A program made the translations under genes and the position numbers. DNA of 64,000 nucleotides from Nitrospinia bacterium. Lineage in GTDB: Bacteria; Nitrospinota; Nitrospinia; Nitrospinales; JAJDAT01. Positions 6,284 through 56,861 of the stretch are shown here, piece after piece. Below the pieces are notes generated by a model. That model was not told the DNA's origin. It did not search any database and was given only the letters and a program-made list of their open reading frames with translations. How positions within the stretch are numbered: the first letter of the stretch is position 1; each line of letters opens with the position of its first letter. The DNA lies in the NCBI GenBank assembly GCA_029261715.1, contig JAJDAT010000016.1, positions 124,001 through 188,000 of the forward strand. Direction: 5' to 3'.

Positions 6284-7543
6284 TTGATCGAAATTAAAAC
6301 CTCAGGCCCTTTAAAAACAACCGTAAAAACGCCTCCTTCAAAAAGTTACACCAATCGAGCTTTACTCGTTTCCGCTCTAGCGGAAGGAGAAAGCGTGGTC
6401 GAAAACCCCCTATTTAGCGATGATACTCATTTTATGTGTCAGGCTTTAAAGGACTATGGGGTATCGGCTGAAAAAGAAGACAATGCATTTCGCATAAAAC
6501 GATCAGAATCCCAATTAGGCGCTCCTCAAAATGAAATTTATGTTGGCAATGCCGGAACTACCATGAGGTTTCTTACTACTTTCGCCTGTTTGGCAAAGGG
6601 AGAAACAAAATTGAACGGCGACGAGAGGATGCTGGAACGCCCTATTGGCGATCTTCTCACGTGTTTGCAATCCCTTGGAGTGAATGCAAAAGCCGATCTA
6701 GGCAATCAATGTCCACCGTTAACCATTCAAGGCGGTAACGTCCGCGGAGGCAAAGCCGGGCTTGCTGGCAATAAAAGCAGTCAATATCTAACGTCTGTCC
6801 TGCAATGCGCTCCTTATTTTGATAACGATACGCAGATTAATATAGTAGGAGAGCTAACTTCCAAGAGTTATATTGATATTACGTTGGAAGTCATGTCAGC
6901 TTTCGGCGTTTCGGTAGAAAATAACGACTACCAGCAATTTTCCGTCAAAGCTGGTCAAAAGTACAAACCACGTGTTTATCGAGTTGAAGGAGACGCCTCT
7001 AGCGCTTCCTATTTCATCGCCGCCGCCGCCGTTTCCGGAGGCGAAGTGACCGTAACCGGTTTAAATCCTAACAGCGTCCAGGGAGATATTAAATTTGCCG
7101 ATGTTATGGTTCAGATGGGCTGCTCGGTAGAAAAAAAATCGGACAGTATCATCGTTCGAGGCGGACCGTTAAAAGGCATTCATGTCGATATGAATAACAT
7201 GCCAGACACGGCCCAAACTTTGGCTGTGGTGGCTCTCTTCGCAGAAGGCGAAACCGTTATAACGGGTATTGGCAACTTAAAAATTAAAGAAACCGACCGC
7301 ATCGAAGCGTTAGCCACTGAGTTAACACGTCTTGGCGCGGAGGTTAAAGCGGGTTCCGATTTTCTTGTAATAAGACCTGGGGAATACCGACCTGCTGAAA
7401 TTGAAACTTACAACGACCACCGGATGGCCATGAGTTTTGCCCTGGCCGGTTTAAAGATACCGGGGGTTAAGATAAAAAATCCTCAATGTGTCGGAAAATC
7501 CTTCCCGGATTTTTTCGACCGATTTCAAGAAATGTATGAGTAA
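6284..7543 (+). CDS. aroA: 3-phosphoshikimate 1-carboxyvinyltransferase (EPSP synthase)
   Basis: 419 residues, the usual length. It joins shikimate 3-phosphate and phosphoenolpyruvate in the chorismate pathway in the cytoplasm. Visible motifs are [12 protein letters not shown] (shikimate-3-phosphate binding), [10 protein letters not shown] (PEP site), a KSSQYLTS segment, NDMPDTAQT-like [12 protein letters not shown] and [10 protein letters not shown]. The alanine/glycine pattern of GNAGT at the glyphosate-sensitive site is the ordinary form. The start is a TTG at 6284 with GGAG ten bases upstream. Its stop overlaps the ATG of the DUF255 gene, so the two genes are translationally coupled. Confidence 0.95.
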
Positions 7544-28500: not shown

Positions 28501-28606
28501 TTAAGAGGGCCTCTAATGATCCATGCTTTTAACTGATTTGCTATCGCCTGGTCCTTGGCAACAATGACTAGGTTCATGGCCAATCTTATTTTTAGAGGTT
28601 TCCTTA
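28501..28606. repeat. Dispersed element with inverted ends and conserved inner stem, copy 1
   Basis: Begins TTAAGAGGGCCTCTAA and ends TTTTTAGAGGTTTCCTTAA, which can pair as terminal inverted repeats. Inside, CCTGGTC pairs with GACTAGG. The second copy at 56754-56861 keeps this stem with compensating changes. No open frame is present. It may be a miniature inverted-repeat element or a structured RNA. Confidence 0.7.
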
Positions 28607-28689
28607 ATTAAATTGGCTATTAGACTTGTTAACGCGGTAAAATTATTCCATCTGAAATAACTTTCACGACTTAATCTGGGAAATTTGCA

Positions 28690-46639: not shown

Positions 46640-49600
46640 ATGTCTCGTCGCGCCGTCATTTTATTAGTTTTTGTCATTGTAGTCTGTTTAAGTTTCTGGC
46701 TCATCTCTCGCTACCCAGCCCTGGGAGGCAAAGCCGCCATGTCCGGAATGGAAGCATTTGACGATCCGTTGACCCATAACGCACACTTTACGCTTCCTCC
46801 AGGATCCCCAACCTACAAACGAATTCTTTATTCCACCCTTAATTGGTACGAAACTAATTGGCGTGGAATGTTTTTTGGGCTTGTTTTAGCTGGAGGCTTT
46901 CTAGCATTACTCAATCACTTACCCAAACGCCCATCCTCAAAACCATTCGTAAATAGTTTTTTTGGTATGTTAACTGGCACTCCACTCGGAGTTTGCGTGA
47001 ATTGCGTAGCTCCTATTGCTAAAGGTATTTATGAAGCTGGCAGTAAAATGGAAACCGCATTGGCTGTTATGTTCAGCTCTCCAACTCTCAACGTGGTTGT
47101 TTTAACCATGTTGTTTTCTATTTTTCCATTTTACATGGCTATTGCGAAATTAGCCTCGACCTTTTTTCTGATACTCGTCGTGATCCCTTTAATTTCTAAA
47201 AACAAAACGATTACAGGGATTTCTGAAAAAAACCAATTAGAAAACACAATTTGCGAGCTTCTTCCCGAAGATGAAAGTTGGTTGGAAGCTCTCAAGGGAA
47301 CTATTCACGATTACTGGAAGAGCTTTAGTTATATTTTTATCAAAACGGCTCCCTTGATGCTATTGGCCGGATTTTTGGGAGCTACATTTAGCCAGTTATC
47401 CGATTTTGACCGGTTAATCGGACTCGATCCAAATTGGAGAAACTTAGCGGCTCTCTCGCTGATGGGAACATTTCTCCCCCTTCCCATCGCCTTCGATCTA
47501 ATGCTAGCTCAGGCTATGATGATCTCTGGTCTTTCTCCTGGCTTAGTCATGGTCATGTTATTTACTTTGGGAACTTTTAGCGTCTACTCCGCCATGATTG
47601 TTTACCAAACGTTTTCCTTTAGGCTCGCCGCTGGACTTTTTTTAATCGTTGCCGCAATTGGAGCTGCTAACGGACTGCTAGTGCATCAATACTCCGAACA
47701 CAAGTTTTTAAGTTGGCTGGAGTCTTACAATAAAATTGTTGTCGCAGAAGAACCTAAAATTACGAATAAAAATACTTTTACAGCGCCAACTCCGCAAGAA
47801 TTTTTAATAAGCCAAACTGAAAGTCGCTCCTTCAATCCTATTTGGGAAAATAATCAGGTATTAATATCCTCTATTTCCCATACTCCAAAATCGCAAGATG
47901 GCTCAAAACCCTTCTCAACTATCTTAGGGCCAACTTTGGGTATCGGATACTCTAATAAACTAACCCCTAACACATTTTTCGATCCTTTATTTTATGGTAG
48001 AGGTATCGCTTCCGGAGATTTTGATAAAGACGGTTGGATTGACTTAGTAACTGCCACAAACAACGGATTTGAACTCTATCAAAATCTCAATGGTAAGAGA
48101 TTTCAAAAAATTCCTCTTCCAATAAATAATTTATCAGGAAAACAATCTATCACAGTCGCCATGGCAGACTTTGATAATGACGGTTGGTTGGATATTTTCT
48201 TTACAACCCTTGGAGATGGAAATCATATTTGGTTAAACCCATTGAGCTCTGGGAAAACTTCTCCTCTCATTCCAGTTCCTAATGGTAACGCGTTTTTAAC
48301 AAGCGCCACAGCCTTCTCTGATTTAAACAACGACAAATTTTTGGACATTGTAAACGGTAATTATTTTTTGGGAACGTTAACAAAAGAACCAGTTGATGCC
48401 GCAGTTGATCAACTAATTATCAATAACAATTTAAAATTCGATCAAGTCCCACTCAAAGGCATCCCAGGACAAACGCACTCAGTTTTATTTGCCGATTTTG
48501 ACAACAACGGAAAAACTGATTTGGCTATTGGAAATGACTATCGAGTAGCAGACGCTTATTATTTAGGCAAGGGAAATGGGAATTTTGAGAAAATTAAAAA
48601 CAGTCAAGGAATCATACCCAAAACTCCCCAAAATACTATGAGTATCGACTCTGGAGATTTCGATAATAATCTTATTCCAGATCTTTATATGGCAAATATT
48701 GGATTATCAAAAGGAACTGCGGTGGTCGCAAATGTTTTTGGTAAAAAAATGAAAGAAGCTGGCGAGACCTTTTGTTTATCTGGAAAGAGTGTTCTCACAA
48801 CAAAAGAATGTCAAAAACAAAACCGGATGACAACGCTTCTTAATCCGGAGAAAAAAGATTCTTCCGAACGATGCTTAAAGTTAGACTCGAAATCCGAAAT
48901 CCGACAATGCATGGCAATGCGGCTAGCGCTAATGGCAATAAAACGTAAAGACAAAAGTCTATGCGCAAAAATCGTCGAAGATTTGCCTTTAATTCAAAAT
49001 TTATGCGAAAAATACTTTCAATCTAAATTTGTCAAGGCCAAGTTCGACGAGGAAATTCCAATGAAAACACATATGAATATTTTACTTCAAGGCGAGAAAT
49101 CTGGAGTTTTTACCGATATTTCAGACACAACAAATATTGCTCCAGGTGAATGGAGCTGGAACGCCAAATTCGCCGATTTAGATAATGACGAGTGGCAAGA
49201 CCTATACATAGTTAATGGAGTGCCTATAACGCAAGATTTCACACCCAACGTTTTCTTTCACAATCAGAAAGGAAAAACATTTTCTTCAGCCGCTAAAAAA
49301 TTCGGATTGGATGACTTCGACCATAGCTCGTCATACACCTACATAGATATCGACCGAGATGGAGATTTGGATATCATCGCAAATACGCTTTACGGACCAT
49401 TTAAAGTTTATTGGAACAACCTAATTAACCAGAACGGAATCTCGTTTAAGTTACGAGATGACATCGCAAACCGATTTTGTATTGGCTGCAAGATAACCAT
49501 TTATTATGGCGATGAGAAAAAACAATTTAGGGAAATCAAGGCCGGAGGAGGGTTTCATTCATTTGACGCCCCAGAAGCTTATTTTGGGCTAGCGTCACAT

Positions 49601-49708
49601 AAACAAATAGCTCGTTTGGATATCAGATGGTCAAATGGAGAAATTAACCAAATCAATCAACCTCTTACCGCTAATTATGAATATCAGATTACCAGGAAAA
49701 ACAAATAA
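46640..49708 (+). CDS. Fusion: ArsP-type permease, FG-GAP repeats and ASPIC/UnbV domain
   Basis: 1022 residues. Residues 1-370 match the ArsP_1/DUF318 permease fold, with GTPLGVCVNCVAPIAKGIYE (cysteine pair in the membrane core) and a second set of helices. Residues ~430-900 hold at least seven FG-GAP/VCBS calcium-type repeats (for example DFDNDGWLDIFF and DLDNDEWQDLY). Residues ~690-770 insert a cysteine-rich helical segment with about seven Cys. The last ~70 residues are an ASPIC/UnbV domain (ending RLDIRWSNG). Such a permease-propeller fusion is unusual. It may export a metal/metalloid or a thiol-bound ion with a periplasmic sensor-like cap. Confidence 0.85.
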   Translation: MSRRAVILLVFVIVVCLSFWLISRYPALGGKAAMSGMEAFDDPLTHNAHFTLPPGSPTYKRILYSTLNWYETNWRGMFFGLVLAGGFLALLNHLPKRPSSKPFVNSFFGMLTGTPLGVCVNCVAPIAKGIYEAGSKMETALAVMFSSPTLNVVVLTMLFSIFPFYMAIAKLASTFFLILVVIPLISKNKTITGISEKNQLENTICELLPEDESWLEALKGTIHDYWKSFSYIFIKTAPLMLLAGFLGATFSQLSDFDRLIGLDPNWRNLAALSLMGTFLPLPIAFDLMLAQAMMISGLSPGLVMVMLFTLGTFSVYSAMIVYQTFSFRLAAGLFLIVAAIGAANGLLVHQYSEHKFLSWLESYNKIVVAEEPKITNKNTFTAPTPQEFLISQTESRSFNPIWENNQVLISSISHTPKSQDGSKPFSTILGPTLGIGYSNKLTPNTFFDPLFYGRGIASGDFDKDGWIDLVTATNNGFELYQNLNGKRFQKIPLPINNLSGKQSITVAMADFDNDGWLDIFFTTLGDGNHIWLNPLSSGKTSPLIPVPNGNAFLTSATAFSDLNNDKFLDIVNGNYFLGTLTKEPVDAAVDQLIINNNLKFDQVPLKGIPGQTHSVLFADFDNNGKTDLAIGNDYRVADAYYLGKGNGNFEKIKNSQGIIPKTPQNTMSIDSGDFDNNLIPDLYMANIGLSKGTAVVANVFGKKMKEAGETFCLSGKSVLTTKECQKQNRMTTLLNPEKKDSSERCLKLDSKSEIRQCMAMRLALMAIKRKDKSLCAKIVEDLPLIQNLCEKYFQSKFVKAKFDEEIPMKTHMNILLQGEKSGVFTDISDTTNIAPGEWSWNAKFADLDNDEWQDLYIVNGVPITQDFTPNVFFHNQKGKTFSSAAKKFGLDDFDHSSSYTYIDIDRDGDLDIIANTLYGPFKVYWNNLINQNGISFKLRDDIANRFCIGCKITIYYGDEKKQFREIKAGGGFHSFDAPEAYFGLASHKQIARLDIRWSNGEINQINQPLTANYEYQITRKNK

Positions 49709-55689: not shown

Positions 55690-56451
55690 ATGAGAATCTT
55701 TAGCTGGAATGTAAATGGTATTCGCGCCATCTTAAAAAAAGATTTTTTGAATTGGATTGAAGAAGAATCTCCCGATGTGGTATGCCTTCAGGAGACTAAG
55801 GCCAATTCAGATCAGGTTGATTCAGATATATTCCCTCCAAAAGGATATACCGCCTATTGGAACTCGGCTGAGCGAAAGGGGTACAGCGGAGTTTTGACAT
55901 TGACGAAAAAAAAGCCAAAATCCGTGGCAATGGGAATGGGTATCGAAGAGTTTGATATTGAGGGTAGGATTGTTCGAACAGAATTTCCAAAATTTGATTT
56001 ATTAAATGTCTATTTTCCAAACGGCACATCTGGAGAAGAGAGACTCGATTATAAAATGCGTTTTTACGATGCGTTTCTAAATCACTGTGAAGATCTAAAA
56101 AAATCTGGGAAGAAATTAATAGTCACAGGCGATGTCAATACCGCCCATTGTCCCATTGACCTAAAAAATGATAAAGCCAACCAGAAAAACTCAGGGTTTT
56201 TACCCCAAGAAAGAGCTTGGGTTGATAAATTTATAGAACATGGGTTTGTGGATACATTTCGCGCATTAAATCCAGATAAAGTTCAATACTCATGGTGGGC
56301 TTATAGATTTAACGCTAGAGCTAGAAATATTGGATGGCGTATAGACTATTTTTTTGTGACTAAGGCTTTAATGAAAAATGTAAAAGATGGGTTTATTGAA
56401 GACCAAGTGATGGGCTCAGATCACTGCCCAATAGGTTTAGATATTAAATAA
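55690..56451 (+). CDS. xth: Exodeoxyribonuclease III (AP endonuclease)
   Basis: 253 residues, normal length. Motifs are FSWNVNGIRAIL, VVCLQETKA (metal Glu), TGDVNTAH (Asp/Asn), RIDYFFVT and GSDHCPIGLDI (catalytic Asp-His). It cleaves at abasic sites and has 3'-5' exonuclease activity on duplex DNA. No operon partner: it lies between an AT-rich accessory stretch and the repeat-containing gap. Confidence 0.95.
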   Translation: MRIFSWNVNGIRAILKKDFLNWIEEESPDVVCLQETKANSDQVDSDIFPPKGYTAYWNSAERKGYSGVLTLTKKKPKSVAMGMGIEEFDIEGRIVRTEFPKFDLLNVYFPNGTSGEERLDYKMRFYDAFLNHCEDLKKSGKKLIVTGDVNTAHCPIDLKNDKANQKNSGFLPQERAWVDKFIEHGFVDTFRALNPDKVQYSWWAYRFNARARNIGWRIDYFFVTKALMKNVKDGFIEDQVMGSDHCPIGLDIK

Positions 56452-56565
56452 TCAAGCTTTTAAGGTATCTCCAGTAATTCAATATTTTTACTTACGGTAA
56501 CTCGCAAGTCCTTATTTCATAAGGTCCGTTCGTAGCCAAAAACAGTTTTTAGAGGCCCCCTTTAT

Positions 56566-56753: not shown

Positions 56754-56861
56754 TTAAGAGAACCTCTAATAATTAACATTTATACTGGTTTGCTATCACC
56801 TAGCCCTTAAATTCATGGGCTAGGCTCTTGGCAATTTTGAATTTTTAGAGATCTCCTTATA
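56754..56861. repeat. Dispersed element with inverted ends and conserved inner stem, copy 2
   Basis: TTAAGAGAACCTCTAA at the left and TTTTTAGAGATCTCCTTA at the right form inverted ends. Inner stem CCTAGCCC / GGGCTAGG is longer than in copy 1 and differs from it at paired positions. It lies 113 bases before the PreP-type gene. Confidence 0.7.

Follow-up and report, generated by a model that had tools for sequence, protein, structure and literature searches.

The window analysed here, a stretch of 64,000 nucleotides from a Nitrospinia bacterium, contains dispersed repeats with inverted ends and an inner stem in which paired bases have changed together. This raises the question of whether each repeat is a functional RNA or a folded MITE, the two readings that a first-pass annotation of the sequence had offered. 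We conclude that the repeats represent a new family of IS5-type MITEs, the hairpin core of which is conserved and is predicted to contain tandem G.A pairs. The features within the window are as follows.

28501-28607, + strand: family A MITE copy 1, from TTAA to TTAA (model R1, 90.1 bits; alignment A1)
28501-28516, + strand: left terminal inverted repeat of copy 1, TTAAGAGGGCCTCTAA, read from the sequence (family consensus, TTAAGGGNACCTCTAA)
28589-28607, + strand: right terminal inverted repeat of copy 1, TTTTTAGAGGTTTCCTTAA, read from the sequence
28546-28573, - strand: inner hairpin of copy 1, stem and loop (arms 28546-28553 and 28566-28573)
28574-28575 and 28544-28545, - strand: GA flanking the inner hairpin of copy 1 on each side
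56459-56564, + strand: family B MITE copy, with ends as in family A and a different middle (model R2, 97.2 bits; R1, 19.4 bits)
56459-56462, + strand: left target duplication TTTA of the family B copy, read from the sequence
56561-56564, + strand: right target duplication TTTA of the family B copy, read from the sequence
56754-56860, + strand: family A MITE copy 2 (model R1, 112.7 bits)
56799-56824, - strand: inner hairpin of copy 2, CCTAGCCC/GGGCTAGG (arms 56799-56806 and 56817-56824)

The two family A copies correspond to those described in the first-pass annotation, with model limits one base off the ends given there, and both contain the common termini and the internal GATTTGCTATCRCCT-type segment (28535-28549 in copy 1 and 56787-56801 in copy 2). 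The inner stems are also as described, that of copy 1 (CCTGGTC/GACTAGG) including one G.T pair and that of copy 2 pairing perfectly. The + strand RNA folds of both copies beat those of dinucleotide shuffles (z of -3.7 for copy 1 and -4.7 for copy 2). The count of two copies was too low, since the window contains a third, the family B copy, which begins 8 nt past the end of the ORF at 55690-56451 (Exo_endo_phos) and lies 190 bp ahead of the second family A copy, and the 5.3-Mb source genome contains about 95 distinct copies in both orientations when families A and B are united. A DNA search of this genome gave 18 matches at E<0.01, the family B sequence model gave 64 at E<=0.01, and a family A covariance model built from 22 copies gave 85 at E<=0.1.

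The anatomy of the copies is that of a MITE. The element is about 107 bp long (nearly all copies fall between 104 and 110 bp) and ends in terminal inverted repeats, TTAAGGGNACCTCTAAAAA and its reverse complement; the end pattern TTAGAGGNNCCCTTAA, with one mismatch allowed, matched the source genome 46 times, as compared with once for the reversed control. No coding capacity was found in the copies and no transposase ORF lies inside them, in agreement with the initial description. Identical 4-mers occur at both ends in 33 of 83 copies, as expected of a TTAA-like 4-bp target duplication. The proposed search for target-site duplications was borne out by nine matching 4-mers other than TTAA (TTAT, CTAA, TTTA, TAAA, and TATC), against 1.6 expected by permutation (P=1e-4). 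At shifted offsets the same test gave 0-3 matching non-TTAA pairs, but 8 at offset +1, a value that we take to be a putative side effect of the T- and A-rich flanks beside TTAA. Placement is intergenic, often near ORF ends, with 77 of 83 copies outside open frames of at least 75 codons, and the orientation bias relative to tandem neighbouring genes is weak (29 versus 17).

Mobility is also evident among relatives. Copies are present in 18 of the 61 genomes searched (the source genome and 60 of its order), one of which, G044, contains 57. An element of G044 (in stretch L229) is missing from the orthologous site of G050, a genome of the same genus, where the flanking genes almost abut. With its short length (<500 bp), terminal inverted repeats, target duplications, dispersed copies, and presence or absence between relatives, the family shows the features by which MITEs are classed here. 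At the intergenic site orthologous to L229 in a further genome, G033, a shortened MITE that belongs to a different subfamily and lacks the hairpin centre lies near 2490-2560 of L353. The flank of the L229 element itself carries two other short dispersed repeats (L229:404-505 and L229:233-301), each of them numerous in G044 and in relatives from its genus.

The inner stem is preserved by compensating changes, as had been claimed from two copies. Among 22 copies, 8 pairs of the inner stem showed two-sided changes, as compared with 3.3 after shuffling (0/500), and the terminal stem showed none above chance. With 51 copies, the inner P2 stem had 52 two-sided cells versus 24.7 shuffled (0/2000) and the terminal stem 34 versus 33.4; the shuffles leave relatedness in place, which is controlled for internally by the terminal stem of these copies. 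Across the order, where hairpins were anchored by flanking sequence alone and the first two pairs were excluded, pairs 3-7 of the inner stem were paired in 83.6% of cells versus 56.0% shuffled (0/2000), with 86 different stem sequences in 122 copies. On the minus strand, GA stands on both sides of the stem base, and by our reading of the predicted geometry these bases would form tandem G.A pairs. The bases around the stem (TCGC...GCTCRTGG) are conserved, which suggests that some factor recognises the core and counts against a pure foldback, which would not need them. A kink-turn core was rejected by hand inspection, the three-base bulge being missing. From the + strand fold the family B stem had appeared broken, a reading that was rejected; the main stem of this family pairs on the minus strand only, through three G-U pairs.

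Despite this covariation, resident copies do not appear to be maintained. In 17 young B copies, the substitution rate was 6.4% for the left terminal repeat and 6.8% for the right, 5.6% for the spacer, 7.0% and 11.8% for the 5' and 3' arms of the stem, and 15-16% for the 4-bp targets. The one exception was the right P1/loop segment TCGTAGCC, which had few changes (1.5%, 2/136) and may be under some selection. Younger A copies were 85.0% paired versus 78.3% shuffled, and older ones 60.6% versus 54.8%. Purifying selection on resident copies was thus not detected, either in the substitution rates of the young B copies or in the older copies, which lose the stem. These results fit a model in which copies decay neutrally once inserted and the structure is kept up in the source elements. 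Because the stem changes at about the rate found elsewhere, old copies lose it, and the orientation bias is weak, the constraint probably acts on the transposing source elements, without each copy being kept as an RNA gene.

Elements that could move such copies were found in other genomes. The 19-bp end, with one free base, occurs in at least 119 public-genome stretches from many phyla, and for most of the matches listed an inverted partner lies at a distance of 85-320 bp. In a Sulfurimonas stretch (L085), the partner end is 1285 bp away and an IS5-family transposase is enclosed, and in L107, L117, L159, and L171 transposase fragments adjoin the matching ends. The order to which the source genome belongs also yielded a complete IS of 1296 bp (L333 of G006), which has an IS5-family transposase (288.6 bits to NF033581), ends GGTGACCTCTAAAA/TTTTAGAGACGCCC, and the target duplication TTAT/TTAT; L334, L336, and L338 are partial cases. 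Matching ends together with the matching type of duplication were found in L085 and L333. A hairpin core was not found in the IS ends examined, apart from one weak match in L336. Since no transposase of the IS5_4/NF033581 kind was found in the source genome (assembly 96.9% complete), where only a distant relative (46 bits) occurs, the ends around which do not match, mobilisation of the MITE in trans by an IS5-family transposase would hold there by analogy, and the element may be stranded or may have been moved by a transient IS.

We consider it quite probable that the family is an IS5-type MITE moved in trans, with a paired core hairpin and decaying resident copies. An IS5-family transposase (NCBIfam IS5_4 type) would recognise in trans the ends GGGNACCTCTAAAAA and put the body of about 100 bp into a TTAA-like 4-bp target, which would be duplicated. 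The module between the ends is a hairpin with GA flanks on the minus strand, the stem sequence of which is free to change while it remains paired, and the resident copies then decay without visible selection. The ends, the target duplication, the copy number, an empty site, the matching IS, the covariation, and the flat decay are all observed. Presumably, transposition requires this hairpin, which would most likely fold the short DNA such that the two ends meet in the synaptic complex; as a body of this length would be stiff, a folding centre would help them meet. We therefore favour, as an inference, a role of the core at the DNA level in end-synapsis.

Of the two readings initially offered, the MITE is supported by the inverted termini, the many copies, the 4-bp duplication, the empty orthologous site, and the matching IS5-family IS, and a functional RNA in the resident copies was not supported. 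According to the latter, every resident copy would be transcribed and its hairpin selected as a regulatory RNA, an mRNA stabiliser, or a processing site. The covarying stem, the conserved internal-loop bases, and the possible tandem G.A pairs are what such an RNA would show, as is the excess of G-U over A-C in minus-strand stems (74 versus 39, anchored by sequence), some of the wobbles counted being fixed in the family B master. In family A alone, however, the numbers are 26 and 18, a difference that did not look significant by eye, and an asymmetry of this kind is also seen in the terminal repeats; the sequence-anchored asymmetry is mild and was dropped as a proof of RNA. Together with the flat substitution rates of the youngest subfamily, with similar values for the stem, the spacer, and the terminal repeats, the old copies without a stem, the weak orientation bias, and the lack of an Rfam match at gathering or relaxed thresholds, it makes this reading very improbable. 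Covariation in a dispersed repeat is thus insufficient for calling a functional RNA.

The hairpin could instead serve the parasite at the RNA level, if read-through transcripts fold, insertions near genes are thereby tolerated, and only such sources persist. Intergenic placement often near ORF ends, stems kept in spreading lineages, and the toleration of G-U on the minus strand, as in the family B stem, agree with this; there is also precedent (PMC10969869 and PMC2229807) in Correia/NEMIS and ERIC, for which such a role has been proposed, with processing by RNase III. The orientation bias, on the other hand, is not strong, and we regard this explanation as rather unlikely. Nor do we think it likely that the covariation is purely mutational, arising when template switching at a quasi-palindrome copies one arm onto the other with no selection. 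That would account for compensation in the short-loop stem and none in the distant terminal stem, but the asymmetric internal loop beside the stem has been kept, and not repaired into a perfect palindrome, and mismatches and wobbles are still common.

Consistent with the initial statement that no known family matches, neither Rfam nor a literature search for the terminal repeat, in which the titles listed had no bearing on repeats or transposons, revealed the family. MITEs with stable folds and with IS5-type ends are already known, as seen in PMC5896051, PMC4596501, PMC10969869, and PMC2229807. Among the closest are the IS5-family MITEs of Porphyromonas gingivalis (BrickBuilt, MITEPgRS/MITE464; PMC4596501), which are likewise non-autonomous, match IS5-family ISs in their ends, have duplicated 4 bp at some sites, and contain long stem-loops; their ends are GAGACCTTTGCA, however, in place of GGGNACCTCTAAAAA, and BrickBuilt has 23-nt tandem repeats and matching ISs in its own genome, unlike the present family. 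Correia/NEMIS of Neisseria, RUP of pneumococcus, and RU-3 share a length of about 100-155 bp, terminal repeats, and folded transcripts, and RUP also a likely trans-acting IS (PMC2229807), but they are TA-ended, RUP is IS630-related, and a covarying core with flanking GA is not described in the source passages drawn on here. CIR of Caulobacter/Brucella is likewise an intergenic repeat, the RNA fold of which is shared between genera (PMC2229807), but it has two arms with a GANTC loop and other ends. QMITE1 and QMITE2 of Coxiella (PMC5896051) are MITEs with stable folds, some yielding small RNAs, but measure 190-400 bp, with duplications of 7-9 bp in QMITE2. The NF033581-type ISs (L085, L333) share terminal repeats and the TTAA-like 4-bp duplication, and differ in their length of about 1.3 kb with a transposase and in that no hairpin core was found in those examined.

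Folded interiors were also seen in MITEs with matching ends in other taxa. After removal of the terminal 20 bp, the interiors of 63 such MITEs among the matches listed had a median fold z of -5.0, and 52 of the 63 had z < -2, values that are slightly too low because the better of the two strands was taken, a mild bias. MITEs are usually portrayed as eroded remains of ISs, the middle of which does not matter. In this family, no counterpart of the middle was found in the related ISs examined, pairing persists across the order while the sequence turns over, and folded middles are also present in unrelated MITEs with matching ends from many phyla, so that the need for a folding core in very short transposons becomes a testable question. 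We raise only as a tentative possibility that there is a widespread class of IS5-type MITEs in which a structured core, covarying in this order and of other shapes across phyla, is an essential cis-acting part of transposition.

Two further groups were observed among the MITEs with matching ends. A second group, of 148-150 bp (L083, L097, L118, L128, L136, L139, L146, and L179), occurs in Nitrosomonas-like, Nitrospirae, gamma- and deltaproteobacterial contigs and shares at its centre a motif of the GGAG-CATAT...ATATG-TGAGC type; this group resembles a further family with a structured core. The 107-bp MITEs of Streptococcus danieliae (L087:4667-4773 and 6393-6499) are an exception to the folded-core trend, their interiors folding weakly (z about -0.7). 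Elsewhere in the window, a 1022-aa ORF at 46640-49708 joins an ArsP_1 permease-like region to FG-GAP repeats and an ASPIC/UnbV domain. Such a combination is unusual and may result from a fusion or from an assembly join.
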